This document shows positions 6,722 through 42,590 of a stretch of 64,000 nucleotides of DNA, one piece after another. Source of the stretch: Siphonodentalium dalli (Eukaryota; Mollusca; Scaphopoda; Gadilida; Siphonodentaliidae); the NCBI GenBank assembly GCA_032622095.1, contig CP136061.1:263780077-263844076 (forward strand), given 5' to 3'. The number at the start of each line of letters is the position of its first letter. Within the stretch, counting starts at the first letter, position 1. A program made the translations under genes and the position numbers. The notes below the pieces were generated by a model. That model had not been told where the DNA came from, made no database searches, and was given only the letters and a program-made list of their open reading frames with translations.

Positions 6722-7210
6722 TTAACCCTTTGAGTGCCAGGTCCGATTTTTGTATCAACCCATATACCCTGTGCCAATGCATTCTCTTATATATGCGAGT
6801 CGACCATAGGTCGCCTCGCATATATAAGAGAATGCATTGGCCTAACAATTTTTCATCTTTTGTTATTATTTTTTACAATTTTTTACAATTTTAATAATTT
6901 TTTCTTATATTCATTAACAGACTTATTTAGTAGGTTTAGTGCCAGGGAATCTTATGTTTTTTTATGGGCATCAAAATTATTACTATGAATACTTGGTGAT
7001 AGTTTTGAGTTATAACATGCCCCTAAGGTGTTATCCAGTTTGTTTTTAAATTCGCTATAGCATGCTTAAGCATACCAAAAAAAATTCAACCCAAAAAAAA
7101 AAAAATTCAACCAAAAAAAAAATTTAAATTATTTTTTATTTTTTTAGGGCCGATTTTACACACCGTAAATTAGGGCCGATGAGATCAGCCCGTGGCACTC
7201 AAAGGGTTAA
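6722..7210. mobile_element. piggyBac-like MITE, 481 bp, with hairpin module
   Basis: TTAA at 6722-6725 and 7207-7210 encloses ends 'ccctttgagtgcca' and 'tggcactcaaaggg'. Within the left part is the hairpin of 6768-6850: 'tgccaatgcattctctta', 'tatgcgag', a short loop around 'accataggt', and the complement. The rest is A/T-rich. This links the hairpin module to TTAA-inserted elements. Confidence 0.8.
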
Positions 7211-15589: not shown

Positions 15590-17085
15590 GCATGGGCTAC
15601 AGGTCTTACCATTGGTCAGATCATTAGGAAATTTGTCATGGCTGTTGACATGTAGACGAGTCATTTTGGGGTCAGTTGGCAAAAAAACATGCCACTGACA
15701 GCCATCTTGGTTTTTACTCTTTGTATGACTAAATCCTTTGGCACAGGCTACAGGTCGTACCTATTGTCGGATCATTATGAAATTTGTTGTGGCTGTTGAC
15801 ATTGACATGTAGATGGGAAATAGGTATTTTGGGGTCATTCTGCAAAAAAAATAATTTGTCTGATCATCATGAAATTTGCCGTGGTTGTTAATATTGACAC
15901 GTGGATGGGAATGAGTCATTTGGAGTCTTTCGGCCATAAAACATGGCTGCCAACATCCATCTTGGATTTCACCTGTTGCATGACTAAATCTTTGGCATGG
16001 GCTACAAGTTGTATCTTTGCTCGGATCATTATGAAATTTGCAATAGCTGTTGACATTGACATGTAAGTAGGAACGAGTCATTTTGAGGTCATTCGGCATA
16101 AACTACGGCAGCTGGCAGCCATCTTGGATTTTATTATTTGCATGACTAAATCCTTTAGCACAGACTACAGGTCGTAACTATGGTCAGATCATTATGAAAT
16201 TTGCCATAGCTGTTGACATGTAGATGGGAACAATTCATTTTGGGGTCATTCTGCAAAGAAACTTGGCCGCCAGCAGCCATCTTGGATCTCAAAATTCAAT
16301 TCTATTCAACTATTCTACTCTATTCTAAGAAATTTACCCCTACTGATCATTAGAAACTGTGATGTGTAACATTAGCACACCCAACAGGTCACATTCCTCA
16401 CCCGATTGTCACCGATCTTCATACGGATCATCAGGGTGACCTCTAGATGGGAGCTTACCAATTTTTCTGATTTTTTTTCAATGTAAGACATGACCGCTGG
16501 CAGCCATCTTGGATTTTACTCTTTGCGTCATTTGAAGGCATGTTTAGGATCACATCTAGATGGGAGCCATCGAATTTGCACAATTTTCTATGAAAAATAT
16601 GGCCGCTGGCAGCCATCTTGGACTTTACTCTTTGCATGACTAAATCCTTGGCATAACATACAGACCACATCCCTTATCCGATTATCAACAACCTTCATAT
16701 GGATCTTCAAGGTGACTTCTAGATGGGAGTCATCGATTGTTTCAGAAATTTGTAGAAAAACATGGCTGCCAGTGGCCATCTTGGATTTTACTCTTCGCAT
16801 GACTAAATCCTTTTGCACACCTACATGCCACATTCCTTATCCGATTGTCACTAAACTTCATATGGATCTTATTGGTGACATCTAGATGGGATCGAGCCAT
16901 CGATTGTTTCCAAAATTTATAGAAAAACATGGCTGCCTGTGTCGTACCTTTGTTCGGATCATTATCAAATTTGTCATGGCTGTTGACATTGACGTGTAGA
17001 TGGGAACAAGTGATTTTGGGGTCATTCGGCATTATAAACGCGGCATCTTGGATTTCAAAGTCCAATAAATAAGCACGGGCTACAG
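15590..17085. repeat. Degenerate tandem array with 'ccatcttgga' units
   Basis: About ten units of roughly 120-160 bp are present. A typical unit runs 'gggctacaggtcgtacc', 'ggatcattatgaaatttg', 'gctgttgacattgacatgta', 'gatgggaacgagtcatttt', 'cagccatcttggatttta' and 'gcatgactaaatcctttgg'. The later units (from about 16350) belong to a second subtype with 'cgattgtcac' and 'catatggatctt'. Minus-strand open frames across it are products of the repeat. Confidence 0.75.
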
Positions 17086-21359: not shown

Positions 21360-22031
21360 TTGAGTTTTTTTCCAAAACTCGACTTATAGTTTGATGAGGG
21401 ACGGTGGACGGGCGGGGCGGGCGACGTGTTTTGCTTATAAGTTATAACTCAACCGTTTATTGACGGATTAAATACAATTTTGGTGTGTGAGTACATATCC
21501 ATGCACGTAAGCTGCAGACAAAAAATCGGGTTCGTCCGCACATTTATTACAGAGTTATGGCCCTTTGAATTTTCAGCTCGTTAGCACGATAACTTCAACA
21601 AACGTTATCCGATTTGATTGAAGTTTGGTATATAGGTGTCTCCCAAGAATACCTCGGACGAGTTAGAAAACCGGCCCGGTCTGATAAAATTTGATAGAGT
21701 TATGGTCCTTAAGTAGTCATTTTGTACGAATTTTGAGCTCGTTAGCGCGATAACTTCAACAAACGTCATCCGATTCAACTAACATTTGGTATATAAGTGT
21801 CTTCCAATAATATCCTGGACGAGTTCGAAAACCAGCCTGGCCCAATAAAATTTGATAGAGTTATGGCCCTTAATTAGTCATTTTTCGTGAATTTTTAGCT
21901 TGTTAGTGCGATAACTTCAACATAACATACGTCCTCCGATTTGTTTAAAATTTGGAATAGACATACTTGCCAAGAATATTTCGAACGAGTTCGAAAACCA
22001 GCCTGGCCCGATAAAATTTGATGGAGTTATG
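21360..22031. repeat. Tandem repeat, unit about 160 bp, 3-4 units, cut by gap
   Basis: Each unit has 'gctcgttagcgcgataactt', 'caacaaacgtcatccgatt', 'tttggtatataagtgtctt', 'gacgagttcgaaaacc' and 'aatttgatagagttatggcc'. The last unit runs into the N gap at 'gagttatg'. Confidence 0.75.
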
Positions 22032-22131
22032 NNNNNNNNNNNNNNNNNNNNNNNNNNNNNNNNNNNNNNNNNNNNNNNNNNNNNNNNNNNNNNNNNNNNN
22101 NNNNNNNNNNNNNNNNNNNNNNNNNNNNNNN
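22032..22131. other. Assembly gap, 100 N
   Basis: Exactly 100 Ns, the usual placeholder for a gap of unknown size. It separates one tandem array from a different satellite, so the join is not proven by sequence. Confidence 0.98.
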
Positions 22132-22720
22132 ATAGCCATGTTCTCGTGAAAATAAGCACTAGTATTTGAATGAGCGAAATACGCTTATATTGGAACTATT
22201 TAACCTTAATACACGCTGTATACTTATGGAATAAAACGCGCCTTTTAAAACAATTCATTATGGGATTAGTTTCATACGAAATACGACCATATTGGCTTTA
22301 TTTAACCTCAATATAGCCTGTTCTCGTGAAAATAAGCATACGTATCTGAATGAGCGATATACTCTTATAGTGGCACTGTTTAACCTCAATACACGCTGTA
22401 TATGGAATAAAACGCACTTTTAAAACAGTCCAATATTGGACTGTTTTCATAAGAAATACGACCATATAGGCATTATTTAACCTCAATGTAGCCATGTTCT
22501 CGTTAAAAGAAGCACACGCATTTGAATGAGCGAAATACGCTTATATTGGCATTATTTAACCTCAGTACACGCTGTATATGGAATAAAACGCGCTTTTTAA
22601 AACAGTTCTATATGGGATTTTATTTTCATACGAAATACGACCACATTGGCATTATTTAACCTCAATATAGCATGTTCTCGTGAAAATAAGCACACGTATT
22701 TGTATGAGAGAAATGCGCTT

Positions 22721-22810
22721 GACGGATTTCCTTTCTCATCGTTTACGCATCAGAGGCCAAAATGTCAATTTTTACCACAATCGGGCGATTTTCCTTCCCC
22801 GACGTTAATG
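22721..22810. repeat. 90-bp foreign insert in the satellite, copy 1
   Basis: Between 'gagaaatgcgctt' and 'ggcgctagttaac' lies a stretch starting 'gacggatttcctttctcatc' that resembles no other satellite unit and is more GC-rich. The block at 24218 has the uninterrupted junction, which shows the insert is an addition. Confidence 0.7.
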
Positions 22811-25800
22811 GCGCTAGTTAACATCAATACACGCTGTATATGAAATAAAACGCACTTTTTAAAACATTTCAATATGGGACTATTTTCATACGAAATACGA
22901 TCATATTGGCATTATTTAACCTCAATATAGCCTGTTCTCGTTAAAAGAAGCACACGTATTTGAATGAACGAAATACGCTTATATTGGCATTATTTAACCT
23001 CAGTACACGCTGTATATGGAATAAAACGACAGTTCAATATGGCATTTTATTTTCATACGAAATACGACCATATTGGCATTATTTAACCTCAGTACAGCCT
23101 GTTCTCGTGAAAATAAGCACACGTATTTGTATGAGAGAAATGCGCATACTTTGGTGCTAGTTAACCTCAATACACGCTGTATATGGAATAAAACTTTTAA
23201 AAATATTTCAATATGTGACTTTTTTCATACGAAATACGACCATATTGGCAGCTTGGCACTATTTAACCTCAATATAGCCATTTTCTCGTGAAAATAAGCA
23301 CTAGTATTTGAATGAGCGAAATACTCTTATATTGGCATTATTTAACCTGAGTACACGCTGTATATGGAATAAAACGACAGTTCAATATGGCATTTTATTT
23401 TCATACGAAATACGACCATATTGGCATTATTTAACCTCAGTACAGCCTGTTCTCGTGAAAATAAGCACACGTATTTGTATGAGAGAAATGCGCATACATT
23501 GGTGCGAGTTAACCTCAATACACGCTGTATATGGAATAAAACTTTAAAAAATATTTCAATATGTGACGTTTTTCGTACGAAATACGACCATATTGGCAGC
23601 TTGGCACTATTTAACCTCAATATAGCCATTTTCTCGTGAAAATAAGCACTAGTATTTGAATGAGCGAAATACTCTTATATTGGCATTATTTAACCTCGAT
23701 AAAGCCATGTTCTCGTGAAAATAAGCACTAGTATTTGAATGAGCGAAATACGCTTATATTGGAACTATTTAACCTTAATACACGCTGTATACTTATGGAA
23801 TAAAACGCGCCTTTTAAAACAATTCAATATGGGACTATTTTCATACGAAATACGACCATATTGGCTTTATTTAACCTCAATATTGCCTGTTCTCGTGAAA
23901 ATAAGCACACGTATCTGAATGAGCGATATACTCTTATAGTGGCACTGTTTAACCTCAATACATGCTGTATATGGAATAAAACGCACTTTTAAAAACATTT
24001 CAATATGGGACGGTTTTCATAAGAAATACGACCATATTGGCATTTTTTAATCTCAATATAGATTCTTCTCGTGAAAATAAGCACTCGTATTTGAATGAGC
24101 GAAATACGCTTATATTGGCATTATTTAACCTCAATGTAGCCAATTTCTCGTGAAAATAAGCACTAGTATTTGAATGAGCGAAATACTCTTATATTGGCAT
24201 TATTTAACCTCGATATAGCCATGTTCTCGTGAAAATAAGCACTAGTATTTGAATGAGCGAAATACGCTTATATTGGAACTATTTAACCTTAATACACGCT
24301 GTATACTTATGGAATAAAACGCGCCTTTTAAAACAATTCATTATGGGATTAGTTTCATACGAAATACGACCATATTGGCTTTATTTAACCTCAATATAGC
24401 CTGTTCTCGTGAAAATAAGCACTCGTATTTGAATGAGCGAAATACGCTTATATTGGCACTATTAAACCTCAATACACGCTGTATATGGAATAAAACGCAC
24501 TTTTAAAACAGTCCAATATTGGACTGTTTTCATAAGAAATACGACCATATAGGCATTATTTAACCTCAATGTAGCCATGTTCTCGTTAAAAGAAGCACAC
24601 GCATTTGAATGAGCGAAATACGCTTATATTGGCATTATTTATCCTCAGTACACGCTGTATATGGAATAAAACGCGCTTTTTAAAACAGTTCTATATGGGA
24701 TTTTATTTTAATACGAAATACGACCACATTGGCATTATTTAACCTCAATATAGCATGTTCTCGTGAAAATAAGCACACGTATTTGTATGAGAGAAATGCG
24801 CTTACATTGGCGCTAGTTAACCTCAATACATGCTGTATATGAAATAAAACGCACTTTTTAAAACATTTCAATATGGGACTATTTTCATACGAAATACGAT
24901 CATATTGGCATTATTTAACCTCAATATAGCCTGTTGTCGTTAAAAGAAGCACACGTATTTGAATGAACGAAATACGCTTATATTGGCATTATTTAACCTC
25001 AGTACACGCTGTATATGGAATAAAACGACAGTTCAATATGGCATTTTATTTTCATACGAAATACGACCATATTGGCATTATTTAACCTCAGTAGAGCCTG
25101 TTCTCGTGAAAATAAGCACACGTATTTGTATGAGAGAAATGCGCATACATTGGTGCGAGTTAACCTCAATACACGCTGTATATGGAATAAAACTTTTAAA
25201 AATATTTCAATATGTGACGTTTTTCATACGAAATACGACCATATTGGCAGCTTGGCACTATTTAACCTCAATATAGCCATTTTCTCGTGAAAATAAGCAC
25301 TAGTATTTGAATGAGCGAAATACTCTTATATTGGCATTATTTAACCTCGATAAAGCCATGTTCTCGTGAAAATAAGCACTAGTATTTGAATGAGCGAAAT
25401 ACGCTTATATTGGAACTATTTAACCTTAATACACGCTGTATACTTATGGAATAAAACGCGCCTTTTAAAACAATTCAATATGGGACTATTTTCATACGAA
25501 ATACGACCATATTGGCTTTATTTAACCTCAATATTGCCTGTTCTCGTGAAAATAAGCACACGTATCTGAATGAGCGATATACTCTTATAGTGGCACTGTT
25601 TAACCTCAATACATGCTGTATATGGAATAAAACGCACTTTTAAAAACATTTCAATATGGGACGGTTTTCATAAGAAATACGACCATATTGGCATTTTTTA
25701 ATCTCAATATAGATTCTTCTCGTGAAAATAAGCACTCGTATTTGAATGAGCGAAATACGCTTATATTGGCATTATTTAACCTCAATGTAGCCAATTTCTC

Positions 25801-26454
25801 GTGAAAATAAGCACTAGTATTTGAATGAGCGAAATACTCTTATATTGGCATTATTTAACCTCGATATAGCCATGTTCTCGTGAAAATAAGCACTAGTATT
25901 TGAATGAGCGAAATACGCTTATATTGGAACTATTTAACCTTAATACACGCTGTATACTTATGGAATAAAACGCGCCTTTTAAAACAATTCATTATGGGAT
26001 TAGTTTCATACGAAATACGACCATATTGGCTTTATTTAACCTCAATATAGCCTGTTCTCGTGAAAATAAGCATACGTATCTGAATGAGCGATATACTCTT
26101 ATAGTGGCACTGTTTAACCTCAATACACGCTGTATATGGAATAAAACGCACTTTTAAAACAGTCCAATATTGGACTGTTTTCATAAGAAATACGACCATA
26201 TAGGCATTATTTAACCTCAATGTAGCCATGTTCTCGTTAAAAGAAGCACACGCATTTGAATGAGCGAAATACGCTTATATTGGCATTATTTAACCTCAGT
26301 ACACGCTGTATATGGAATAAAACGCGCTTTTTAAAACAGTTCTATATGGGATTTTATTTTCATACGAAATACGACCACATTGGCATTATTTAACCTCAAT
26401 ATAGCATGTTCTCGTGAAAATAAGCACACGTATTTGTATGAGAGAAATGCGCTT

Positions 26455-26544
26455 GACGGATTTCCTTTCTCATCGTTTACGCATCAGAGGCCAAAATGTC
26501 AATTTTTACCACAATCGGGCGATTTTCCTTCCCCGACGTTAATG
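26455..26544. repeat. 90-bp foreign insert in the satellite, copy 2
   Basis: Same insert as at 22721, at the same position of the higher-order block 3734 bp later. It was copied along with its block by array amplification. Confidence 0.7.
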
Positions 26545-28625
26545 GCGCTAGTTAACATCAATACACGCTGTATATGAAATAAAACGCACTTTTTAAAACA
26601 TTTCAATATGGGACTATTTTCATACGAAATACGATCATATTGGCATTATTTAACCTCAATATAGCCTGTTCTCGTTAAAAGAAGCACACGTATTTGAATG
26701 AACGAAATACGCTTATATTGGCATTATTTAACCTCAGTACACGCTGTATATGGAATAAAACGACAGTTCAATATGGCATTTTATTTTCATACGAAATACG
26801 ACCATATTGGCATTATTTAACCTCAGTACAGCCTGTTCTCGTGAAAATAAGCACACGTATTTGTATGAGAGAAATGCGCATACTTTGGTGCTAGTTAACC
26901 TCAATACACGCTGTATATGGAATAAAACTTTTAAAAATATTTCAATATGTGACTTTTTTCATACGAAATACGACCATATTGGCAGCTTGGCACTATTTAA
27001 CCTCAATATAGCCATTTTCTCGTGAAAATAAGCACTAGTATTTGAATGAGCGAAATACTCTTATATTGGCATTATTTAACCTGAGTACACGCTGTATATG
27101 GAATAAAACGACAGTTCAATATGGCATTTTATTTTCATACGAAATACGACCATATTGGCATTATTTAACCTCAGTACAGCCTGTTCTCGTGAAAATAAGC
27201 ACACGTATTTGTATGAGAGAAATGCGCATACATTGGTGCGAGTTAACCTTAATACACGATGTATATGGAATAAAACTTTTTTAAATATTTCAATATGTGA
27301 CTTTTTTCATACGAAATACGACCATATTGGCAGCTTGGCACTATTTAACCTCAATATAGCCATTTCTCGTGAAAATAAGCACTAGTATTTGAATGAGCGA
27401 AATACTCTTATATTGGCATTATTTAACCTCGATATAGTCATGTTCTCGTGAAAATAAGCACTAGTATTTGAATGAGCGAAATACGCTTATATTGGAACTA
27501 TTTAACCTTAATACACGCTGTATACTTATGGAATAAAACGCGCTTTTTAAAACAATTCAATATGGGACTATTTTCATACGAAATACGACTATATTGGCTT
27601 TATTTAACCTCAATATAGCCTGTTCTCGTGAAAATAAGCACACGTATCTGAATGAGCGATATACTCTTATAGTGGCACTGTTTAACCTCAATACATGCTG
27701 TATATGGAATAAAACGCACTTTTAAAAACATTTCAATATGGGACGGTTTTCATAAGAAATACGACCATATTGGCATTTTTTAATCTCAATATAGATTCTT
27801 CTCGTGAAAATAAGCACTCGTATTTGAATGAGCGAAATACGCTTATATTGGCACTATTTAACCTCAATACGCGTGGGATATGGAATAAAACGAAATAAGA
27901 CCATATTGGCATTATTTAACCTCAATGTAGCCATGTTCTCGTTAAGATAAGCACTAGTATTTGAATGAGCGAAATACACTTATATTGGCACCATTTAACC
28001 TTAATACACACTGTATATGCAATAAAATGCAATTTTTAAAATAGTTCAATATGGGACTATTTTTATACGAAATACGACCATATTGGCATTATTTAACCTC
28101 AATATAGCCTGTTTTCGTTAAAAGAAGAACACGTATTTGAATGAGCGTAATACGCTTATATTGGCATTATTTAACCTCAGTACACGCTGTATATGGAATA
28201 AAACGCGCTTTTTAAAACAGTTCAATATAGGATTTTATTTTCACACGAAATACGACCATGTTGGCATTATTTAACCTCAATATAGCCTGTTCTCATTAAA
28301 AGAAGCACACGTATTTGAATGAGCGACATATGCTTATATTTGCATTATTTAACCTCAGTACACGCTGTATATGGAATAAAACGCGCTTTTTAAAACAGTT
28401 CTATATGGGACTATTTTCATACGAAATACGACGATATTGGCATTATTTAACCTCAGTACAGCCTGTTCTCGTGAAAATAAGCGCACGTATTTGTATGAGC
28501 GAAATACGCTTATATTGGCGCTAGTTAACATCAATACACGCTTTATATGGAATATAACGCACTGTTTAAATCAGTTTAACATGGGACTATTTTCATACGA
28601 AATACGACCATATTGGCATTATTAA

Positions 28626-29682
28626 TCTAACGTTTTCCATCGACACGACTTGCCAGATTCACACTTCTTTATATTGTTTTATCACTGCGGCCCGTGCCGT
28701 TCAACGGAATAACGAGTACATGTATACGCTCACGATGGACTTATTTGCGAATGAAATCCGTCCAATATGAACCTATTTGCTTGAAGATATGGTCAATATG
28801 GTGATGTAATAGTGAAACTCTACTGAGTCTGCTAGGTGTTCAGATAACCGAGTGCTGTTAGATATCGGTCGACTTCCGTTCACGTACACCCAAGTACTCG
28901 GTTTCGAAAACGTCAATATATATATATATATTTCGTCCTATAGAAGAAGCGATGCCATTAAGCCAGGCTAAATTATCAATACAACAGTTAGTACACTTTA
29001 ATACGGTTTAACAAGCAACAGGGTGTTCACATTCATTTTAAAAACTCAATATTTCAAGCTCTAAATCTTGTTTACCGTGTGTGTCCTGTCGAGTTCCCTT
29101 TTTAATATAGGGAACAAACAAACTGGCCCAGTCGGGGGTTATTATCTGGTAAATGTGTCCACAAATTTACATGTAGGCTTCCACATGATATAAGGAATCT
29201 AATGGTTTAGTTTGAATTTTCCGAAGAGGCACCTGACGCATAATGCCGGTGTATATATTTTATCCGATTGTTAGCAACATATGTTATAACAAGACAAATG
29301 TTATCATCTCACAATGTGAGAATAAACCGCATGCTAGATTTGTCGGTGTTATTTGGAAAATAACCAAAGTTTAATCGACTACATCAAGAGACATACGCGG
29401 CCATATCGTCTTTTTCAATTATGTCGGCTTTAACATTGGAGAGAGACTGCTCAATAACACTTTCTTTGTTCAGCCTGTTCTAGACCATAGTCCCAATTTG
29501 ACTTATTTGGAGGTAGATAGGTTCACCATTGAGCTATTGGTGCTATAGAAGCCTTTTACCGTGATAACGTGTTTTTCTGTGGCCAGCGCCATACAACGGC
29601 ATAACATGTATAAGTTCACTATGAGCTTATGTCCGAATCACATAAGTGCAACATAAACCTATGCGAATACCCATATAAAAAT
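28626..29682. other. Spacer between satellite and minisatellite
   Basis: No gene is seen. It begins and ends with a diverged direct repeat: 28684-28800 ('cggcccgtgccgttcaacgg' to 'caatatgaacctatttgct') and 29573-29665 ('ccagcgccatacaacggc' to 'aacataaacctatgcg'). A short (TA)n run is at 28916-28932. Confidence 0.5.
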
Positions 29683-30570
29683 ACACCCTGGTAAGTCCAC
29701 TAGGGTTTTTGGGGCAAAACCCGAGTGTCCGTCTATCTACCAAGACATCCAACAACCATCAAGACTCCATGAAACCCGGGTTTTACCAGGATTAAACAAG
29801 GTGAAACAAGACAAAAACCCTGGTGTGGATAAACATGGGTGTACCCTGGTGTTTACTACCTGAATGTTTCCCACCCAAGTGTACCTTGGTGGGATTCACC
29901 CAGGTGTACTTTGATTCTTCGTACCTAGGTGTATATTGATGTTTCCCACCAGGTGTACCTTGGTGTTTTCTTACCCCGGTGTACCTGGGTGTGTCCTCGC
30001 CTGGGTTTACCTTGGTGTTTTCTTAACCAAGTGCGTCTCCCAGTTTTTCCACCCAGGTGTACTTTGATGTTTTGACGGGGTTTCCCCGGGTGTTTATACC
30101 AAGCTATACCCCGGGTGTTTTAAGCAGGTACCACCCGACTATTTTACCCTTGTGTACCCCACTATTTTACACAGGTGTATCCCGGTGCACCACCCTGATA
30201 TACCCAGGTGTTGGAACACCAGGGTTTATCAGAGTGGTTGCACTCGGGTTACACCTGGGTAAGAATACTGTGGTACACCAGGGTAAAAGCATCGAGTTGA
30301 GCAAGAACACCCGGGGTATACCTTGGTATAAATACCCGGGAACACTTGAGTCGAAACACCAAGGTACACCTGGGTGGAAACACTAAGATGTACAAGGGGC
30401 AAGAAAACCCCAAGATACACTCATGTAAGGAAACACCAAGGTACACCGGAGTAGGAATACACCAAGGTACATCTGAGTGGAAAACACAAAGATACACATG
30501 AGTAGGAAACAACAAGGAACACCTGTGTGTATAACACCAAAGTACACATGGTGGGGGATACAAGAGTACA
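29683..30570. repeat. Inverted CCAGGTG minisatellite array
   Basis: The degenerate unit is about 30 bp, 'cccacccaggtgtaccttgg' plus 'tgtttt'. It runs forward to about 30200 and then as its reverse complement ('ccaaggtacacctgggtgga') from about 30230. One segment is matched in order on both sides ('gggtgttta taccaagctatacccc' region at about 30090 and its complement at about 30310), so this is a real inverted duplication able to fold into a long hairpin. Frames on both strands are products of the repeat. Confidence 0.8.
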
Positions 30571-33539
30571 ATGGTGGTGAGGATATGTGTAAACAAACAA
30601 CGATGTGAATGGCAAGGGAGTAGATTTTGATGGGATGTTTGGGTACTGTTAACAATGGCGTCACACAGCATGGGACATATTCACTTGAAAGAATTAGTTA
30701 TCACAAACTGATTGTTGAGCCCTATATGTTTATTCAAGATAAGCTAACTAAAGATCAAATAGTGAAACACATGTAATAAATATAAAAACTGCATGGGTTA
30801 TAAACTACTGTTAAAGAGTTGGGTTAAAATATTGATTTAAAAATTTAAAATAGCCTCTTCCTGTATGGTATCATTAAACAGGCAAGTTGCATATAGTTGC
30901 AATATTTACCGGTGCATGACATAAGTCCTAAAATCATTTTTTGTTAGTTCCAATGTCATGTACCAGTATACCTTGCAATCATATTCCCAATGATGTAATT
31001 TTGTCTAAGTTTAAACATTCTAACTGGCTTTCTCCATTTGAATGACATAAACTAAGATAAGCAGGAGCTCTGATGTGAAATACATACTGTAACTGAATCT
31101 ATACCTGTATATACTGCTGAGTTATTGATGCTTTATATCTTCCCAGCATCATTTCCAAACAACGCAATGTTCGCGGAACTGATTTTCAATGCCGTTTCAA
31201 CAACAATATTACAGAAAACAGCAACATCTGGAGTTGGTACATTGTTTCACTTAAAACTGGTTAAAATTTTTGATTTGTTTTAATATGCTGTAATGCTCTA
31301 CAAATAGCCACATGTTCTGTCCTGGTTCATATAAAATAATTGGAGAAAAGCATTATATCTTAGTCTGAGGACATGTTGTCTGTTATCAAACTGCTTCAAT
31401 ATATAGATTTGTAATAGAATCCTGTAATGCTCTAGAAATAGCCACATTCTCTGTCCTGGTTCATACACAATGATTGGAGAAAAATATTATTTCTTCAGTG
31501 TTAGAAGGACATGTTGCCTGTTTTATCTTACTTATAAAACCTCAAATATACATGTAAACAGAACATTTGTGAAAGAGACAAACCATATTTAACCTTTTTG
31601 ACAACAGTAGCAATTTATCAGATAGCAGTATATATTAAAATAGTATTCAGATTTTAGTAATTAAATAAACACATCAATTGCACCACCTCGAAACAGTTAA
31701 AAATAGAATTCAGACTATGATCCAGGAGGGTGTCACCCGCCTGGTTTGGTAAACACCATTCAGGTCATGACCAGGTTGTACGCTGTATACATACATGTAC
31801 CCAATATTATATGGTACTAGGAATTCATATGGCAATATAACCGGCATTTAGGAATGAGCAAAAAGTATGGTATGCAGCAAAAATTACTCAATTTTTTTAC
31901 TGTACAATTACTAAGTATGTAATCCGTATTTTCTTAACTCATACACTAAGTTTACCCCTAACTGTTAACTGGTGTTCAGTATTCATGGGTGGTAGGGGTC
32001 AACACCCTCATACAGGCGGACCGACCCTTCAATTACAATGGAATAGACCATTCTGGATGGTGTCGCCCCTTCTGAATACAAGTTAATACAGAATATATTT
32101 TAAACAACACGGCGGTAGTTTACTTGGTTACAACGTCAACACAATACTACCGCACCGCTGTACGATTTAATACCGGCGGATATCGCGTATCAGCTAGGAC
32201 TGTAACGATTCATCGTGAATCCATGAACTGTATCGTCATACACTATTCAACGACACGCACATCGTGTCACGTGTAATGCTATACAGGGACTCATGTAATA
32301 TCCGAAGATGGGCATGTGCGACAGAGCAAAACCTGCATATTTTCTCTCAAATATTATGTGTATTTGACTCATCTAGTTAATTATTAAACTGTGTTAAAAT
32401 GAATTGTATCCAGTTATAAACATGGTAATTCTAATAATTTATTTATTTAGCTATACTCTATACTTAACCGACCCCTTTAATGTGGTTATAGGCTGGCAAT
32501 GAACGTGGTCGTACCGCAGTCAAGTGGTATGACACGAATGCTAGCGGTTGACATGCAGTATCTGCTGGTAATCTTATCATGGTATTTTTATTCGACCGCA
32601 AAAATGGTGAGTTCAATCTAGATGTTTGGAAACACATGAGCGATTGACTCCTGGCGATATTTCTAATCAGCAAGTTGTCAATTGATAAATACCATATCTA
32701 CATCAGGGGTAGCTTTAAGTTTATTTTCAAATTATCCACAAAGCAATAGTTAAATTAACCATAACAATGAGAGTTTTATACAGCGATTAACAAATTACTT
32801 GCTCCAACACGCTTTTTAATCATTACAATATTATCCCAGTCATCTGTACAAGCCACCCATTAACCGACTGCAGCCATTGTAGGTACTGTTCTAGTTTGAC
32901 CAGAACATGATCTCATACTCAACGGTATGACAAGCTAACTGGCACTCATTTAACACATGAGTGGTGCGAAGCCGACACAGTACGAGCGACCTTGCCCAAG
33001 GGTCACAACTTTGCGCGGTTTGAAACAACGAACAATCCGACAATTGCACGTCGCTCAAAGCGATGAAGCCACTGATGTGTGAAGACTCACACTAGACCAA
33101 CGACGGGTGCAAACTATCAACGCAGCGAATACAAGTCCGACATGCCAACCACTGGATCACGAAGCACCATACATAACAAGAAAACCATAGTCAAAAATTG
33201 TAACGCCCTCAATATCATATTATTAACTTTAATGTGGTGATTATGAAAAACGTGTATATAGGCCATGCCTATGTAGTTGATTATATATATGTGATATGTT
33301 GTGTATGTGAGTATACGATACACTTGGCGAGAAAGGATGTGAGACAATTTAAAAAATCGGACGTGCCAACTAAAGTTTATTTTGAAATATTTACACACCA
33401 CATTATATGTATATATATAAGTTCTGAAATGTTCATCGCCGAACATGCAAGGTCCATTGCATTGATATATCAATAACACACACACATTGCCAAAGAAGTG
33501 ACAAACGCCTTGACGATTGACACGTTATTGAGTTACCCG
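30571..33539. other. Intergenic, no gene recognised
   Basis: Apart from the 31289-31521 duplication I see only ordinary AT-rich sequence. 'ggactgtaacgattcatcgt' at 32200 resembles the subterminal DNA of some hAT elements, but no partner end was found. Confidence 0.4.
31289..31521. repeat. Two-copy tandem duplication, about 131 bp
   Basis: 'gtaatgctctacaaatagcc', 'tctgtcctggttcata', 'attggagaaaa' and 'aggacatgttg' recur in the same order in 31289-31385 and 31420-31521. Confidence 0.7.
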
Positions 33540-34260
33540 CACACATGACCACTCATACCTTCCATACTTGCAAATATATCTCACACATGATAATTCAGCA
33601 ACTCACTGTATACCCACACACGCCATCCATGATCATACAGCTACTCCCTATACACCAACCAATGATAACACATCAACGACATATATAGATATGCACCCCA
33701 CCGTTACCACAAGGGCACTGCCTATATACCGACATGCTCGCCACTGACCATCCAACTTACTCCAGGAATGCATATACACTTCAATCATGACCGTACAGTC
33801 ATTCCATGTACCCCCTATACACATTACCCTTAACAATAAAATCACTCCTTATTTATCCACCCCATCCATGATCATTCAAATAGCATATGCATACATATAC
33901 ACCCACATGTCACAATACTGCCACACATGGTACACCTGTACATCAAATCCTTGACCTCATTCACTCCATATATACATAAACAACAAACAGGTGACCATGT
34001 AGCTAATCTCGTTATAGCCATACACCACATCAATGCCAATACATTCCCAACGGATACACCCTTACTGGGTACACACAACCATACCTCATACAGTAACTCC
34101 ACATATACAGCCACTCATTGTATACATATATATATATCAACATGGACACCCCACTCATAACCATATAGTCACCCCTTGTATACCTATTCACATCGTTCAT
34201 CCCTGTATAACTATTCACCTCACCTATGATCATATAGTATCTCCCTGGCTGTCATATTGG
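33540..34260. repeat. Degenerate minisatellite, unit about 50-60 bp
   Basis: Repeated phrases such as 'ccatgatcatacagctactc', 'cctatacacc' and 'tattcacctcacctatgatc' recur with heavy drift. The same sequence appears in both orientations at 37740-37890. Confidence 0.55.
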
Positions 34261-34599
34261 CATCCAGACTGTATCCAGTCGATAAATTGTAATCCTAATG
34301 GGCCAGAATAGCCACATGTTATGGTTCATCTCAGTAATAGAACATACCATAATATAACATATAGTTGCAAGTTAATAAACTAACACGTATAATAACCACA
34401 TGAGTCGCAATTTGCTTCCTTTTCCGAAAACGAAGAAAATAATGTTCGGGATATATGTTCACAATCAACATTTTATCAAATTTGGTTGCCATTTTGGAAG
34501 CCATCTTGAGCAATTTGGTCTACAACACAGTAGTTTGATACAGTTAAGATAGACCAAAACAATAGACGCCTTTCTTACACCTATATATTTACATTATAC

Positions 34600-36941
34600 T
34601 TGAAAAATGGTCCAAACCTGAAAAGTAAATTATGCCGATATTTATGTCAAGTATGTGAGAGAAAAATCCAATAATTCTGGAAATGGTGGTGGTGACAATA
34701 GTAACAATTAACCATGGTGCTTCAGACATGTTAATTTTCAAGGTATAGAAGGAAGAATAGCCAATGTTATACATCAACCACAACTTGTAAGCGATTGCCG
34801 TTCACGCTGGGGCAATATCGACCATTTCCATTATTTTGGCGGCCATTTTGGCAGCCATTTTGATCCAAAGTAACAATTTTGGTTCCAATGAGTTGGAATA
34901 TGCATAAGTAATGATATACCTCCATTAAATTACAAAGTTATGTTTATTTCTTTTTGAAATATGACTAGAATCCCAATTAATTGCATATTTCATTGCTCCA
35001 GTGTTCAGTTAATATAAAAATTACAAAATAAAGTCACATTTCTCAACCAGTTCCAATCAGCATAAACTGATCTAGAAGATATTAGTGAAACAACGTCATA
35101 TGGCCATTTTGGCGGCCATCTTGGATGAGGAGTTTCAATTTTTCCCTATAACAGTGGAAATATGTTTTAGCTTCAAGAAAATACATACATTTGTATGCAT
35201 TTTACTAGATTTTCCCGCTACAATTTGCATCAAACTGACTTAGGGCTAGTCTGAAAAGCGGCGTCCATGATGGACGCCATCTTCTCTGGAGTCTACACGG
35301 CCATTTTGTATACGTGTTAAAGATGTACTGTACGCCATTTTGAATAAATTCCCGGTGATAACAACAATCTAATATAGCTAATATATAGAAAACTATGTAA
35401 TTTGAGTCGAAGATGTATTCTGTAAACGTTCAGGTAAATAGGTTATTTTAAAATCAAAGTTAATAATTTGATATAAATTTAATTTATGGCAGGAGTCATA
35501 AATTAAATTACGAATTTCCGTGTACAAGACGTAATCAAAATAATTCACCTCTAGTGGATTGGGTAAAGCGTGGCTCACATCGTTTAAAAATTATGTTGAT
35601 ACGGGGCGTAAACTCAAGCTACTCACTGCCTAGTAACTATACAAAGACTTAGTGAGTATATGGGACTATTATGCATATAACATAACATTTATTTGATACA
35701 TTTGCTTGAAAACTGTCCAAAAATTACTCGACAACGACAACTGGTATTTTCGCATTCCGGCTAATATGCTATCATCAACAGACTTTCAAATAATGGACAT
35801 CTTGTTACCTTGTTCTACAACTCAGAAACTAAAGAAATCAACAACAACATTTGGGTACGGTATCCCTTTAACATTGCATAAAAGTTGAAGGACATACTAA
35901 GGAACAAAATGAGTGGGATAAAGTTAAGTCCCAGTGGGGTGCAAGGGACCGCTATCAGCTCCGGGACTAACTGTAATTGGTTTGTTTCGTTTGCTCGTCC
36001 GCAAATTAGAAGTTAATTTTTTACATGATTCAGCGTGTCTTTTTCGATAACTGTGAACATCACTGCGAATAACATCGCTGAATCTTGCATTTAGATGAAC
36101 AATGTATCCAATGTTTGCTAGTCAATCATTTTCTGTTATCGATCCATTTTAATTTGCGACCACAATTACCAATAACAGACAAAATGGTGTCCAACATGAC
36201 CGCCGTTTTTTTCCAGACGAGTCACTAAGTCAGTTTGATGCAAGTTACACTGAGAAACTCTAGTCAACTGTATACAAGTATATATATTTTTGTGAACCTA
36301 AGATAAAATTCCACTTTTTAAAGGCAAAATGGAACTCCCTGCACAAAGATGGCCACCAAAATGGCAGCCGAAAAAAAATTGACGTTATTCACTAATATTT
36401 TCTAGATCAGTTTCTACTGTATGGAATTAGCTCAGAATTGGGGCGTTGATTTTTTATTTTCATGTGAACTGATCATTGGAGCAATGAAATATGACAGTCA
36501 TGTGGTCTCAGTCTTCTGATCCCTCAACAATTCGATTTACAGAACGCGGTATAAAATTTTACAAAAAATCACCAGTGGGATTCTAGTCATATTTCAAAAA
36601 GAAATGAGCAAAACTGTGCCATGTATGTGAGGCGTAGCACGACTTATAAATAGTTCAACTCAATTGAACAAAATTTGTCATTTTGTCTAATTATGGCGGC
36701 CAAAATATTAAAAATGGTAAATATTACTCTGGCATGCCATGTACTCGCTTACAAAGTGTGGTTGTTGAATAACATTGGCTATTCGGTCTTATATACATTG
36801 AATACTGACATTTCTGATGCATCGTGATTAATTTGACTACTGTAACTACTAACATTACCAGAAAAATAATGGATTTTTCTGTTACAAACTTGACATCTAC
36901 GTCGGCCAAAGTTAACTTTTCAGGTTTGGACCATTGTTCAA
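34600..36941. mobile_element. Large foldback element, about 2.3 kb, arms ~0.7 kb
   Basis: The left arm (about 34600-35300) and right arm (about 36170-36941) match in inverted order at many points: 'ccaaacctgaaaagt' against 'cttttcaggtttgg', 'tagccaatgttat' against 'ataacattggcta', 'gggattctagtcatatttc' against its complement, and 'gcatcaaactgacttag' against 'ctaagtcagtttgatgc'. The spacer 35300-36170 is unique, with a small palindrome at 35473-35507. No transposase frame is present. The right terminus was hit by a TTAA element at 36942. Confidence 0.75.
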
Positions 36942-37340
36942 TTAACCCTTTACCCAACAGAACGGCCCTGTGCCAATGCATTCTCTTATATATGCGAGTC
37001 GACCATAGGTCGCCTCGCATATATATAAGAGAATGCATTGGCTTAACACATTAAAAATTATAAAATTGTTAAAGAATGTAAGAAAAAATGGTAAAAGTTT
37101 AAAAAAAGATTTATTTTAGGCCAATGCATTCTCTTATATATGCGAGGCGACATATGGTCGACTCGCATATATAAGAGAATGCACTGGCACAGGGCATAAC
37201 TGTAACCATCACCATGTGGTCAATGAGCCGGTTCAAATGATATCCATATTTGTATGGTTTTATTGAGACAGACCAAGATAATTTAGGCTGTTGCAGCTTT
37301 ATTAGGCCATTTTTGGCCGGTTTGTTGGGTAAAGGGTTAA
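36942..37340. mobile_element. piggyBac-like MITE with hairpin at each end
   Basis: TTAA at 36942-36945 and 37337-37340 encloses ends 'ccctttacccaacaga' and the complement 'tttgttgggtaaaggg'. Two hairpin modules (36967-37046 and 37121-37197), each of 'tgccaatgcattctctta' and 'tatgcgag' type, sit in opposite orientation. It is inserted at the end of the 2.3-kb foldback. Confidence 0.82.
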
Positions 37341-37739
37341 AATAGAATTATCTTCGGAATCAAAGGTGTTTATTGTTTTGTTCTGTCACACGGATGTGCT
37401 TTCAGTCAAAATCACTCAAAATGGCTCGCAAACTTTTCTAAAAAAGTTGATTGTTCACATCGTGAACATTATTGTTCTCAGCTGTTCCGAATAAGGTAGC
37501 GAATTGTAACTCACTTGGTTATTGAACACGTTTCTCAATCCACTGACTAATAATTGTTTTGCTTCTGAGGCATGACAAATTCATTTTATAGGATGCAGTA
37601 TGGAATTTTGGAATTCTGTCCACATTTTTGAACGGAATGGCCAAACACATTGAAAGAGAACCAAGAGAGAACACACATTATTTGGCTATTCTTGCCCATT
37701 AGCACCAAAATGAATCAACTTTAAATATGTTGTATGTCA

Positions 37740-37895
37740 CAACGACAGCCAGGGGTGAATATGTGTTTTTATGTGAGGTGAATAGGTAAACATGCATGGA
37801 GTTACTATATGATCACATCATGACCAAATATCCACTCCATTTCGTTATCATACAGTAACTCCCTATATACCTATTCACCTTACATATGCCCACCC
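37740..37895. repeat. Inverted pieces of the 33.5-34.2 kb minisatellite
   Basis: 'aggtgaataggtaaacatg' and 'tatatgatca' face 'catacagtaactccctatat' and 'cctattcacctt'. This is the minisatellite at 33540-34260 in both orientations. Confidence 0.5.
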
Positions 37896-38560
37896 AGAAA
37901 TGGTAGTGTTCAGTGTGTGTAAGATAGACTATCCCATTTTATTCAACAACCACAACTTGTTAGCGATTACATGACATTATGGGGCAATATTTGCCTTTTT
38001 CCGTATTTTGTTTTGCGGCCATTTTGGCAGCAGTTTGAGACAAAGTGACAATTTTGGCCCCATTGAGTTGGAATATTCATACGTAGTTAATGGTATGCCC
38101 CACTTACATTGCACAGTTCTTCTCATTTCTTGTTGAAAAGTGATTAGAATCACAATGATGATTTTTGTGTGTGAAATGTTACACCACGTTCTGTAAAATC
38201 GTATTTTTGAGGGATCGGAAGGGGCTGGAACCCCAAGGATGTCATATTTCATTGGTCAATAATCAGTTAACATGCAAATACAAAACAAAGTCCCAATACT
38301 GAACCAATTCCATAAAGCAGAAACTTTTCTAGAAGATATTAGTGCAAACATGTCAAATTTTCCTCTTCCGGCTGCCATGTTTGCGGTCATCTTGGACGGG
38401 AAGTACAATTTTGCCATACAAATGTGGCATTGTAGCTTCACAAAAATATATGCATTTGTATACACATCACAAAATGTTCTCAATATAATTTGCATCAAAC
38501 TGATTTGGTGCCTCGTCTGAAAAAACGGCGGCCGTGTCGGACGCCATCCATAATCCTGGG
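37896..38560 (+). mobile_element. Partial third copy of the 2.3-kb foldback arm
   Basis: It runs in the same order as the left arm: 'caaccacaacttgttagcga', 'cggccattttggcagc', 'gagttggaatattcata', 'tagaagatattagtg' and 'ttgcatcaaactgattt', ending near 'gacgccatc'. A minus-strand 169-codon frame across it (38256-38765) is a chance frame. Confidence 0.7.
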
Positions 38561-39062
38561 TGGGTGGGTGCCGTGGTACCCTATCAGATGATATCCTGGG
38601 GTGGGTGCCTTGGTACCCTATCAGATGAAATATGGTATTACTGCATATAGCCGGGTAGTGTATTGTCATACTATGATAAAACATCAAATTATCAAGTATT
38701 ACAGTTTGTACCCAGGTGATACCCGGGTGTATATATACCTTGTTTTTTAACCCGGGACAATACATTTTATAGAGTTTAACAAATATATCCGGTTTTCAAC
38801 CGGTTGTTCACAGGCGATACCAGGGTTTATCTGCACCCGGTTTAAGCCATATGTATATATTTTACCCAGACAACATGGTGTGGCCGCGGCTTTCTAACTT
38901 GTATCCGTTAACACCCAGGTGAGCTAGTGTGATATCCATACAAGATGGACAAAACACCAGGGTAAATCTATATATTTTTGTTTTACATGGGGTGTACTAG
39001 GGTATACCAGTGTGTGTCAGGGTTTTACCATGACAAACCCAGAGGTTTAACAGGGTGGAATT
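38561..39062. repeat. Degenerate CCAGGTG-type array, second locus
   Basis: 'tgggtgccttggtaccctat' twice, 'cccaggtgatacccgggtg', 'accagggtttatc', 'acacccaggtgagc' and 'accagggtaaatc' are spread through the segment. It ends in 'cagggtggaattttatatgg', which is the reverse complement of the left boundary of the array at 29683. Confidence 0.6.
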
Positions 39063-40239
39063 TTATATGGGCATTTCGGTTCAATATGAAGCTATTTGCT
39101 CGAGAATGTTTCTTTATTTGTATAGACAACTAATAAGTAAAATCGAATTTTCCCCATTGACAGACGAGCACCAACACTACGTGCAAACGGTTCCCGGTAA
39201 ACACAGCCCATTAACACAGAATACCCGCAGTCCCGCAATCCGTGTATCAGCGAGATCTAATAGACATAAGTCACCCAACCGACAGCAATCAATGAACGCT
39301 TTTAGTATTCTTAGTTAGTTGCTGCGAAGGTATAGTGTAGTATAGGTATTTTACAAAAATGATCCATTTCTCACATTGAGAGTTACAATTCTCTCAAGGT
39401 TGACGCGACTTGGCAACTGGGCAACAGAAGGAGCTATTGCCACACATGAATTTAAAGTTATGGTATCGTAACAGCAGAAATATCAAAATCTATGTACCAC
39501 ATTATGTTAAATAATGCGGGGCTATTTTCCAAAAAAATGAGTATGATATACTGGTACGAGAGAGCAATCGGATTCGTCCATTCTTATCAGAAGAACATGT
39601 TATTATACGCTCAACAGTGAATTATAGAAAAAACGCGTTTAGATAAACATCGATATCACCCAGAAGTGATATAGAAGAATACACTTCCACCCTGGCTCGC
39701 GTGTGCGACCGATTCACTTGCATCGATTGAAGACGACTGTGAGATCATTTAACGTCGTCAATTGAAAATGTCTTTGAAATGGATATAATAAAAAGAATGT
39801 CTAGTGTTTTTTGAGTGGATACCGAACAATATGCCATTCGTGACCGAGATAAATGTTTATTTTCGCTCGCGAAACATTTGTCTCGCTCACTCATGACATA
39901 TTTTTCGGTATCTACTCAAAAACACTAGATATCCTCTATTTATCTTACCGATAAGAAAAGATAATTCATTTAACTAACAAGGTGACTCGGTGTGTACCAG
40001 GTTAAAGATATGCTACTAACAGGGTCACTCGGCGTGTCCCAGGTTAAAGTGATGAGGATGAAACACACAGATGGGAAACTTTAATGGGAATAGAGACGGG
40101 GTGCTCTTGCTGAAAGTAGTTAATATAAGTTATAAATTATTATTATAATTTCACATTCTTATACTTGCATAGATTATTTTCAGAAGCTCACATTGGCAGA
40201 AATGATTGTCGTTTGTTTATCGTCCAACATAAAAATAGG
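39063..40239. other. Spacer of the second composite locus
   Basis: No gene is seen. It contains a hairpin element (39793-39936) and two 'gtgactcggtgtgtaccagg'-like phrases at about 39981 and 40024. Confidence 0.4.
39793..39936. repeat. Hairpin element, about 140 bp
   Basis: The left arm 'ctagtgttttttgagtggat' and 'accgagataaatgttt' are mirrored by 'aaacatttgtctcgctc' and 'ggtatctactcaaaaacact' with few mismatches. It is a compact MITE-like palindrome. Confidence 0.7.
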
Positions 40240-40327
40240 TTCATATTGAACATATTTCAAAAACCAAATACGCCCATATTGGCGTTTTTTTTAATCTGAA
40301 TTACGCTCTATATGTATTTAAATGGGG
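40240..40327 (+). repeat. Single monomer related to the 22-28 kb satellite
   Basis: 'ggttcatattgaacatattt', 'ccaaatacgcccatattgg', 'aatctgaattacgctctata' align with the satellite half-unit ('gttcaatatggg', 'gaaatacgaccatattgg', 'aacctcaatacacgctg'). Two more copies are at 62790-62885 and, reversed, 63085-63180. Confidence 0.65.
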
Positions 40328-40968
40328 AACGTTTCGACTCGTTACAGATTGCTGACTATATGCCATGATACATGTACGTGCATATCACGTAACGTTTCGA
40401 CTCGTTACAGATTGCTGAATATATGCCATGATAAGCTCATGTCACATAACGTTTCTACTCGTTACAGATTGCTGAATATATGCCATGATAAGCGCATGTT
40501 ACATAACGTTTCGACTCGTTACAGATTGCTGAATATATGCCATGATAAGCGCATGTCACATAACGTTACAGATTGCTGAATATATGCCATGCTAAGTGCA
40601 TATCACACAACGTTTCGACTCGTTACAGATTGCTGACTATATGCCATGCTAAGCGCATATCACATAACGTTTCGACTCGTTACAGATTACTGACTATATG
40701 CCATGCTAAGCGCATATCACATAACGTTTCGACTCGTTACAGCTTTCTAACTATATGCCATGCTAAGCGCATATCACATAACGTTTCGACTCGTTACAGA
40801 TTGCTGACTATATGCCATGCTAAGCGCATATCACATAACGTTTCGAATCGTTACAGATTGCTGACTATATGCCATGCTAAGCACATATCACATAACGTTT
40901 CGACTCGTTACATATTGCTGACTATATGCCATGCTAAGCGCATATCACATAACGTTTCGACTCGTTAC
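40328..40968 (+). repeat. 57-bp tandem repeat, about 11 units
   Basis: The unit reads 'aacgtttcgactcgttacag', 'attgctgactatatgcc' and 'atgctaagcgcatatcac'. Starts are at about 40328, 40390, 40448, 40506, then (after one shortened unit) 40609, 40666, 40723, 40780, 40837, 40894 and 40951. Because 57 is divisible by three and the unit lacks stops in one frame, an open frame spans it; I do not read it as coding. Confidence 0.9.
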
Positions 40969-41795
40969 CTGCAAATGTTTGTTCTTTTATATTTGTCTAA
41001 GTCTTGAAATTATGTTTTTTGTTGTTTTCTTCATTTCGGATAAGTCCTAGTTATGTGTTGCTTGTTTCACTATTGGTTGTAAGGTGGTAAGGTTGTGGAA
41101 GTAGCCAACAATTGTTTTTTGTTTAAGACTTTAAATGTTCATATATAAGACATGTAGCAGTTGTAACCACATATTCGTGACTACAAGCACGACTTACCAA
41201 ATCTCCTGATATTTCAAAAAGATTGACTTTATCATATTATGTCTGAAATTTTGTTTTTATAAAAATAATGCATGTCATTAATGTGACCCAGGATTAACAA
41301 AAATGTCACCAATATATTGGCAATTATCACAGTTATGACGTGTGAACACTTTAAAAGTTCAGTTGGTGGTTATCAAGAATGTCCGTAAGAAAGGCGTCCT
41401 ATACACTGGCTGCCTTATATACAGTATTTGCGCTGCCGTTAATCAATTTAGCCAAATGAGAAAAATAGATAGAAATGGCTAATCTAACTTGTCAAATGGC
41501 GAACAAAAATGGCTAAAGGCATTTCCCCCGGCATACAGCGTAAATAGAAGACAGGGGCGGTGGGTTGACGCTGTCTTTGTCAATGATCTAATTACCACTA
41601 ATACAGCTATCTGCAGTTGCACGAAAGACAGTCACCTCACTTCACTGTGACATGAAGGCCTATGTGCTTAAGTCGTTGTGTATACTCTGGGTGTCCATTC
41701 AGTATTATTCTCACCCATCATTACCATAGCTCGACGACAATAAAATATGGGTGCGAAATACGCCATGTATCAAATCCAGTCGTAAGTCGGGATTT

Positions 41796-41885
41796 TTGTT
41801 ACCCTGTGCCAATGCATTCTCTTATATATGCGAGTCGACCATAGGTCGCCTCGCATATATAAGATAATGCATTGGCCTAACAATT
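41796..41885. mobile_element. Hairpin module of the TTAA MITE family
   Basis: 'ccctgtgccaatgcattctc', 'tatatgcgagtcgaccat', and the complement, followed by 'ggcctaacaatttttta', match 6768-6860. The outer inverted ends were not found, so this is a fragment. Confidence 0.65.
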
Positions 41886-42590
41886 TTTTACAATTTTAAT
41901 AACTTTTTCTTGTATTTTTTAACAATTTTAAAATTTCACCCATACATAGCCCCAGACAAACATGAGCAGACGACACTCTTCTATATGCTTCTATATATGT
42001 GTAGGGCTCCCCGCAGGGTCGTTGTCGTTTGAGGGAAGTGTCAAATCTATTGTTGTCAATTATTCAAGCTTGCTGACTTTATTTTACAAGAATGATTGTG
42101 CAAAAGCCAGCGGTATCTACAAACAATTACACCGTATACGTTTCTGTATGTTGCAAACTATATGCGCGATATCCGAAATGAATGCGTAATATTGTTCAAA
42201 TTATTTCAATGCTATAGTATCGATTTTACTTATATTTAACTACTTATAGTAACAGCGACAATGTTGAAAATAATCTGTGTTATTAAATGTCGATTATACC
42301 ATGAGGAAAAGTGGCTTAAATGTTTTCTTTTGGCTAATCAAAAATCTGGAAATGGCCAAAGATTTTATTGTTCAGCGCGAACATTGTTATATACTGAACC
42401 ACATGGGGCACAGGCACTATTAGCAATATCATGCAGGTTTCTTCCATGTTCAACCACACCTGTTAAAATTGAGTGGTTGCATTGACAACGTCCACATCTA
42501 TTGGACAAATGGGTCGCAGTGGGCCTGTCGATACAACACATCCGTAGCGTGTAAGTCCATCATAAATTATATCCCACCTTAAGAATACCC

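Follow-up and report, generated by a model that had tools for sequence, protein, structure and literature searches.

A satellite, a CCAGGTG palindrome and probable nested transposon insertions at one locus of the scaphopod Siphonodentalium dalli

Helitrons have neither terminal inverted repeats (TIRs) nor target duplications, and they end in 5'-TC and 3'-CTRR or in Helentron-type termini. Among TIR elements, Tetris and the TIR-220 satellite of Drosophila virilis are a published precedent for a satellite that derives from a TIR, as described in passages of PMC4079207. For the animal TRC elements of the CACTA superfamily, CCC termini and 2-bp duplications are the marks reported in parts of PMC1636069 and PMC4298943, and a section of PMC2613891 describes diverging subterminal repeats, able to form stem-loops, in plant CACTA elements. 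Here we analyze a 64,000-nucleotide stretch of the Siphonodentalium dalli genome (the window; C1:263780077-263844076 of a 2.23-Gb genome in nine contigs), for which a preliminary description had joined three loci into one modular family: a large satellite, a spacer and a CCAGGTG array (locus 1), a second CCAGGTG array, a spacer, a single satellite-like monomer and a 57-bp array (locus 2), and two facing monomers with a short CCAGG run (locus 3). We conclude that nested insertions, not one modular family, very probably explain these loci, with a large CCAGGTG-bearing insertion (T) lying inside an older, larger repeat (H) that also holds material of a short TIR family (S).

We refer to the spacers of loci 1 and 2 as sp1 and sp2, to the S core motifs as A and A', to a separate abundant repeat as M, and to a sister subfamily of T as T2. 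Coordinates are window positions, and oriented features lie on the forward strand unless marked as reverse. Tandem repeats within the window were detected with Tandem Repeats Finder (TRF) and self-matches with BLAST. Genome DNA searches scored about the best 40 candidates, and the copies fetched (numbered with L) are best matches, not a random sample.

One older repeat on both sides of a 9.4-kb insertion

Used as separate genome queries, sp1 (28796-29559) and sp2 (39109-40231) both matched one place, where they meet at C2:42346046. The run sp1-A'-sp2 was found without T and without CCAGGTG in L007, L008 and L009 (sp1 being common to the first two and partly present in the third), and L007 and L008 also contain the satellite-A combination. 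At the join the H loci read GYGAATATTTMG, whereas the window reads GCGAATA, a 9.4-kb insert and then CATTTCGG. We fused window positions 29600-29669 to 39072-39120 and aligned the product to 12 S/H loci (L007-L018); these joined flanks retain both presumed duplication copies and are therefore 2 bases longer than the unoccupied site. They were continuous over the junction in 10 of the 12 loci, compared with none of 12 for a control with the wrong right flank, and the genomic copy had no extra bases at the junction in nine of the ten loci that span it. Left of the insert, A' (29560-29669, reverse) is part of a second S-related copy and matches S at 60 of 77 positions (score 83, shuffle maximum 36). 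This alignment ends before the junction; the rest of the copy to the right (39072-39108, reverse) and its inferred end point depend on the empty-site and joined-flank comparisons. At the level of these alignments the nesting is established, and loci 1 and 2 are best read as the two sides of one T insertion in the end of an older repeat, which would make the link between satellite and CCAGGTG accidental.

The history of the locus may be reconstructed as follows. The older repeat H would have contained S-family material, and at locus 1 tandem amplification of the 3' TIR of one S copy has produced a satellite 6.5 kb or more in length. T would then have inserted in another S-related stretch, some 0.8 kb beyond it and about 37 bp from the predicted S end, at a site that would have read ...GCGAATATTTCGG... 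beforehand. This insertion would have separated the halves of H, giving rise to loci 1 and 2, whose shared boundary is the inverted terminus of T. Repeat M and the 57-bp satellite would be further, unrelated arrivals.

The spacers show additional structure. Around 29403-29406 the window is without about 1.5 kb of sp1 that is present in L007, and L008 also has extra sequence here, which may mean that the window underwent a deletion or the others an insertion. Repeat M, which breaks sp2 at about 39600-39968, is abundant and short with a palindromic half (39788-39943), and L009 lacks it at this position. At L007:537-1158, multiple matches to a part of sp2b resemble a minisatellite formed from a sequence with few copies in the window.

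The reverse-complementary array boundaries noted in the preliminary description are real. T (29670-39071) has TIRs that begin with CCCATATAAAA, reading CCCATATAAAAATACACCCTGG from 29670 and CCCATATAAAATTCCACCCTGT on the other strand from 39071, so that the two boundary copies are its inverted termini (left, 29670-29695; right, 39046-39071, reverse). With a 211-base left-end probe, 38 of 39 other listed matches start at query 11-20, equivalent to 29665-29674 and centred on 29670 (best 40 of 674 scored). A 226-base right-end probe, reversed, gave 20 of 40 other matches that start at query 12-19, or 39067-39074, centred on 39071, and 20 that start further in (40 scored of 223). The 26-base terminus CCCATATAAAAWTCCACCCTGGTAAA has 84 genomic sites at two mismatches or fewer, compared with none for the reversed pattern, and these genome-wide matches establish the T termini. 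Bases outside 31 inspected T termini varied.

Other copies share the left 2.4 kb of T (29670-32093) and its right 1.3 kb (37736-39071, with matches running to 39074, as for positions 1336-2616 of L027), the latter including a repeat at 37895-38548 and a second CCAGG-rich stretch; most of the middle is not shared. The left CCAGGTG array forms an imperfect CCAGGTG/CACCTGG palindrome of about 700 bp (29865-30562) in the left subterminal region, 76% identical to its own reverse complement by BLAST, within which TRF reports CCAGGTG-like repeats (29867-30550). This palindrome was present in all seven left-end copies (L019+L020 and L021-L026), and its single strand folds at -210 kcal/mol compared with a mean of -100 (standard deviation 4.6) for 20 shuffles. 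We rejected the idea that the CCAGGTG repeats are a mere tandem array, since they align end to end with other T copies and form a palindrome. The array described at locus 1 is hence present, though not as the simple tandem array it was taken for, and for the one placed at 38561-39062 TRF reports none, the CCAGG-like motifs there being diffuse.

A palindromic left array, a T interior that is not conserved, and a second end found in one of five stretches (L019+L020), diverged, would also suit two independent, short CCAGGTG elements resembling miniature inverted-repeat transposable elements (MITEs) beside S-related DNA, with the 8 kb between them as host DNA. Yet 30563-31500 accompanies six of seven left ends and 37895-38548 accompanies three of the four fetched right ends (L027-L030) but not that in L020; because both travel with T ends, these stretches belong to T despite looking like flanks. 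The outer flanks are moreover the two sides of one continuous sequence, and the inner edges have no CCCATATAAAA terminus. We regard two separate elements as very unlikely.

Several observations weigh against a single T insertion as read here. Two of the 12 loci, L012 and L014, fail to span the junction, L016 has four extra bases there, and the duplication around T in the window is imperfect (TA/CA) and depends on the comparison with H. The simplest target duplication would be TA, with the right copy now CA, and 0 bp is also possible. Second ends were searched in five T stretches; the pair in the one that has it, L019/L020, shows a GA/GA duplication only with CACATAT taken as the right terminus. 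The candidate T pairs L035/L036 and L037/L038 have no duplication, and we rejected them as complete copies because their flanks do not support them.

Some T-type copies hold other sequences. L026 together with L032 (C8:129861600-129874500) has a T-type left end and more than 7 kb inside it with repeated open frames, several of them spaced about 530 bp apart in an apparent tandem array. A frame that looks like a reverse transcriptase, judged by its translation, lies in or beside the T-type copy of L034 with L030 (positions 1898-2914), consistent with a nested retroelement.

Parts of the two families were also compared across their genomic copies. The first comparison found no match to the satellite, A, sp1, A', sp2, the monomer, the 57-bp array or the locus 3 parts in any of 11 T subjects (L019+L020 and L021-L030), and no match to T parts in any of L007-L018 (12 loci). 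A wider run gave 0/45 T-type loci (L019-L054 and L085-L093) with matches to S, H or 57-bp parts, the 45 representing fewer than 45 copies, because some are neighbouring fragments of one copy or short terminal fragments, and 0/32 S/H loci (L007-L018 and L055-L074) with matches to five T parts. The preliminary description proposed one modular non-autonomous family, possibly Helitron-like, whose internal module grows into different tandem arrays. The parts do co-occur at loci 1 and 2, and the S part does expand into a satellite, but the termini of S and T differ, the joined flanks are continuous, and S has TIRs and 7-bp duplications; together with the absence of co-occurrence this leaves such a family highly improbable. 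What had been named as the outcome that would speak against the link, namely that its parts occur independently, is what we found for CCAGGTG, and the CCAGGTG arrays are not a module of the satellite family and are instead subterminal regions of T. Nor does a Helitron fit, given the TIRs and 7-bp duplications of S and the CCC-ended TIRs of T. The 57-bp satellite (40328-40968, TRF) is a separate, unrelated family that forms arrays elsewhere and, among the matches listed, adjoins the monomer only in this window; it is not a module either.

The S family and a satellite from its terminal repeat

We found that the satellite, placed in the window by TRF, and the single and facing monomers, placed there by BLAST, do form one non-autonomous mobile family, as the preliminary description held. 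Locus 3 (62772-63187) is one S copy with its facing monomers (62787-62879 and 63079-63172, BLAST) as the two TIRs, because S copies share TIR ends and 7-bp duplications. A search with locus 3 gave 39 other best matches (40 scored of 3942), of which 34 start at query 25-38 and 27 end at query 436-450, or 63175-63189; the longest extends to query 497, or 63236. The short CCAGG run once included in this locus (about 63255-63300) lies outside the S repeat, with matches mostly ending at 63175-63189.

Of twenty S loci fetched, L073 and L074 are incomplete as S copies; the remaining 18, like the window copy, align from CAACATATCCTCATG to AACAGGCTG. Their majority sequence is 458 bp long with CA...TG ends and TIRs identical at 112 of 123 positions, and its termini, CAACATATCC/CAGCCTGTTC, are unlike the T terminus. 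After five of 21 rows were removed (L073 and L074 as not full-length; L059, L060 and L071 as near-duplicates), nine of 16 non-redundant copies had at least 6 of 7 flanking bases identical, compared with 0.07 expected from cross-pairing. These fixed ends and this 7-bp target duplication are established by the copy alignments, though the locus 3 copy itself speaks against the pattern, having no 7-bp duplication (1/7). On its sequence characters, S is a short, non-autonomous TIR (MITE-like) transposon family with fixed ends and a fixed duplication length. No S TIR was found within about 1.5 kb of a P transposase, a candidate partner, at 10 inspected loci of 97 matches.

The preliminary description had missed motif A, which occurs twice in locus 1 (28685-28776 and 29577-29662) and once in locus 3 (62894-63041, matching 28600-28752). 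Compared with S, A is identical at 140 of 196 positions (score 158, shuffle maximum 41). The single monomer (40232-40330; BLAST, 40232-40327) is a fragment of the S 5' TIR, with 94 of 105 positions identical to the majority sequence (score 160, shuffle maximum 39). Inverted pairs of the 30-base stretch 41761-41790 are present in L016 and L017, where they lie close to A, and also in L018; further short inverted-repeat families lie at 41800-41936 with 2350-2512, 6765-6900 and 36966-37194.

The big satellite (22132-28625; TRF, 22132-28623) has units of about 79, 97 and 176 bp. Aligned to the S 3' TIR, its unit is identical at 84 of 125 positions with a score of 75, compared with a shuffle mean of 21.5 (standard deviation 3.8, maximum 39 of 500), 37 for the reversed satellite and 18 for a control stretch of the window. 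It is followed by core A and the inferred 5' terminus of the same S copy (28626-28795, reverse), and among L007-L018, 11 of the 12 loci have A next to a satellite-type TIR, whereas L009 has A' alone. Of the matches to a 353-base query, the 16 that cover 351 bases or more all fall within this array, and those elsewhere cover no more than 191 bases, roughly one TIR length (40 scored of 943); among the scored matches, the long array occurs at this locus only. The satellite is thus a tandemly amplified S 3' TIR, probably that of one S copy, with unequal exchange as a possible cause of the amplification.

Misjoined or mis-sized contigs could also have produced part of the layout, above all the satellite. 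A 100-N assembly gap (22032-22131, read directly) abuts the left edge of the satellite, so this edge is not a biological boundary and the length (at least 6.5 kb) is uncertain. Internal 1.5-kb blocks are 99.5% identical at an offset of 3734 and 98.9% at an offset of 1651, as expected of recent segmental amplification, and one of them starts at the gap; its recurrence 3734 bp on at 99.5% raises the possibility that the array is mis-sized. The junction of satellite and A recurs in the genome, however, and the T junctions agree with genome-wide termini, which confines the doubt to the left side and length of the array. An assembly artefact has little probability as an account of the locus.

Other tandem repeats reported by TRF in the window are three short arrays with units of 161-163 bp (15855-16219, 16552-16941 and 21567-22031) and two copies of a 381-bp unit with 96% matches (60784-61543).

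T2 and the superfamily of T

A search with the first 22 bases at three mismatches or fewer gave 690 genomic sites, whereas the reversed pattern gave nine. The listed places include seven facing pairs on C1 with identical 22-base termini, CCCATATAAAAATCCCCCTTGG; these T2 copies range from 2.8 to 9.2 kb and have CCATGGTGG/CCAAGGTGG-type repeats just inside their ends (TRF on L085). Exact 2-bp repeats flank five of the seven (tt, tt, tg, tt and ac), compared with 7 of 42 cross-pairs. That such repeats also arise in cross-pairs counts against a 2-bp duplication, as do the 5-bp atatg of L086 and the 6-bp agtgca of L087, lengths reached by no cross-pair; a target duplication of 2 bp is only moderately supported for T2. 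A TA-specific (Tc1/mariner) insertion of T, suggested by the TA/CA pair, was rejected in view of the varied bases beside the 31 termini and T2 flanking repeats that include tg and ac. In aligned element blocks, L088 and the 9.2-kb copy, which contains extra inserted stretches, show 99.2 to 100% identity while their flanks differ, and these near-identical blocks therefore indicate recent mobility.

TIRs that start with CCC occur at both ends of T in the window, at the 84 genomic terminus sites and at the T2 termini, and subterminal repeats, a trait of plant CACTA elements, are found in both T and T2. A point against assigning T to this superfamily is that no transposase was found in open reading frames (ORFs) of T copies (L019-L034) or T2. 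Ten ORFs searched against Pfam gave no family for the eight from T copies, and one of the two from L007 matched DUF4444 at E=0.22. Five T2 ORFs likewise gave no transposase: L089 contained RVT_1, and the remaining matches all fell below curated cut-offs (Jun, E=0.0013; ToxT_N, E=0.0078; DUF4703, Glyco_hydro_32N and Zn-C2H2_12, E about 0.1). Transposase_21 has 78 matches in the genome, including ten listed places at 96.9 bits with a 909-codon frame, and no T-type end was found in four loci cut out around such matches or in one 9.4-kb stretch. The missing Transposase_21 region is compatible with a non-autonomous element, and T is therefore TRC/CACTA-like and not a proven member. By its CCC ends, T probably resembles non-autonomous TRC-type CACTA elements most, and the T2 2-bp repeats support this only moderately.

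Two of the Transposase_21 loci on C6 (L096 and L097) are 99.94% identical over 3570 bases, which with the ten equal-score places suggests very recent CACTA activity. Frames that look like reverse transcriptases, possibly nested retroelements, lie in or beside T-type copies at L089:603-2990 (RVT_1, Pfam) and L093:3024-4319 (by translation).

The CCAGGTG-type arrays may act as binding sites for transposition proteins. We also put forward, as a tentative and rather doubtful idea, that this TRC-like CACTA lineage keeps its outermost bases CCCATATAAAAATCC fixed while the whole subterminal array is swapped (the CCAGGTG palindrome in T, CCATGGTGG/CCAAGGTGG in T2), that the arrays would be binding sites of a fast-evolving accessory protein whose turnover leads to incompatible subfamilies, and that the same locus would hold a satellite that arose from one TIR in just one S copy.

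Comparison with described elements

Literature searches returned nothing that we recognised as this T or S, which is no proof of absence, and each is a fresh example of an already known element type. An apparent new kind of modular element is replaced by two transposon families that can be defined and whose termini, copies and empty sites are testable. The locus offers a clean case of a TIR that became a satellite, the scored matches showing a long array at a single locus, and it exemplifies CACTA-like elements with palindromic, subfamily-specific subterminal arrays. Nested layouts such as this may mislead surveys of satellites in which co-occurrence is taken to mean a common origin.

Like the Cg_HINE Helentrons of the Pacific oyster, as presented in part of PMC7492417, the elements described here are dispersed and mobile with satellite-like repeats; Cg_HINE elements are Helentrons, however, whereas S and T are TIR elements, S with target duplications. 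Closer to S is Tetris, in the portion of PMC4079207 that treats it, a non-autonomous TIR element whose TIR sequence likewise builds kilobase satellite arrays. Tetris differs in its 8-10 bp duplications and repeats within the TIRs, S being short with 7-bp duplications and one long array among the scored matches. Galileo of the P superfamily, according to passages of PMC4168063, shares with S the 7-bp duplications and has TIRs that are lengthened by internal tandem repeats in some copies, but no P transposase was linked to S at the 10 loci inspected of 97 matches, and the S duplications do not, by eye, follow the GTANTAC of Galileo.

T and T2 share CCC-starting TIRs and kilobase size with the TRC elements, going by sections on SmTRC1 of Schistosoma (PMC1636069) and on Hydra Spongebob_HMa, equivalent to EnSpm-4N1_HM (PMC4298943). 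The exact 2-bp direct repeats at five of seven T2 copies compare with 7/14 in the SmTRC1 results of PMC1636069. Unlike TRC elements as those sections portray them, T and T2 are without a found Transposase_21, T has a large palindromic subterminal array, and two T2 copies have 5- or 6-bp repeats. In their subterminal motifs, which are direct and inverted, stem-loop-capable and subfamily-specific, T and T2 are like plant CACTA elements with asymmetric subterminal repeats, such as the soybean Tgmt* elements in the part of PMC2613891 devoted to them. Tgmt* elements have CACTA termini and a 3-bp duplication there, whereas T has CCC termini and a left array that forms one palindrome of about 700 bp.

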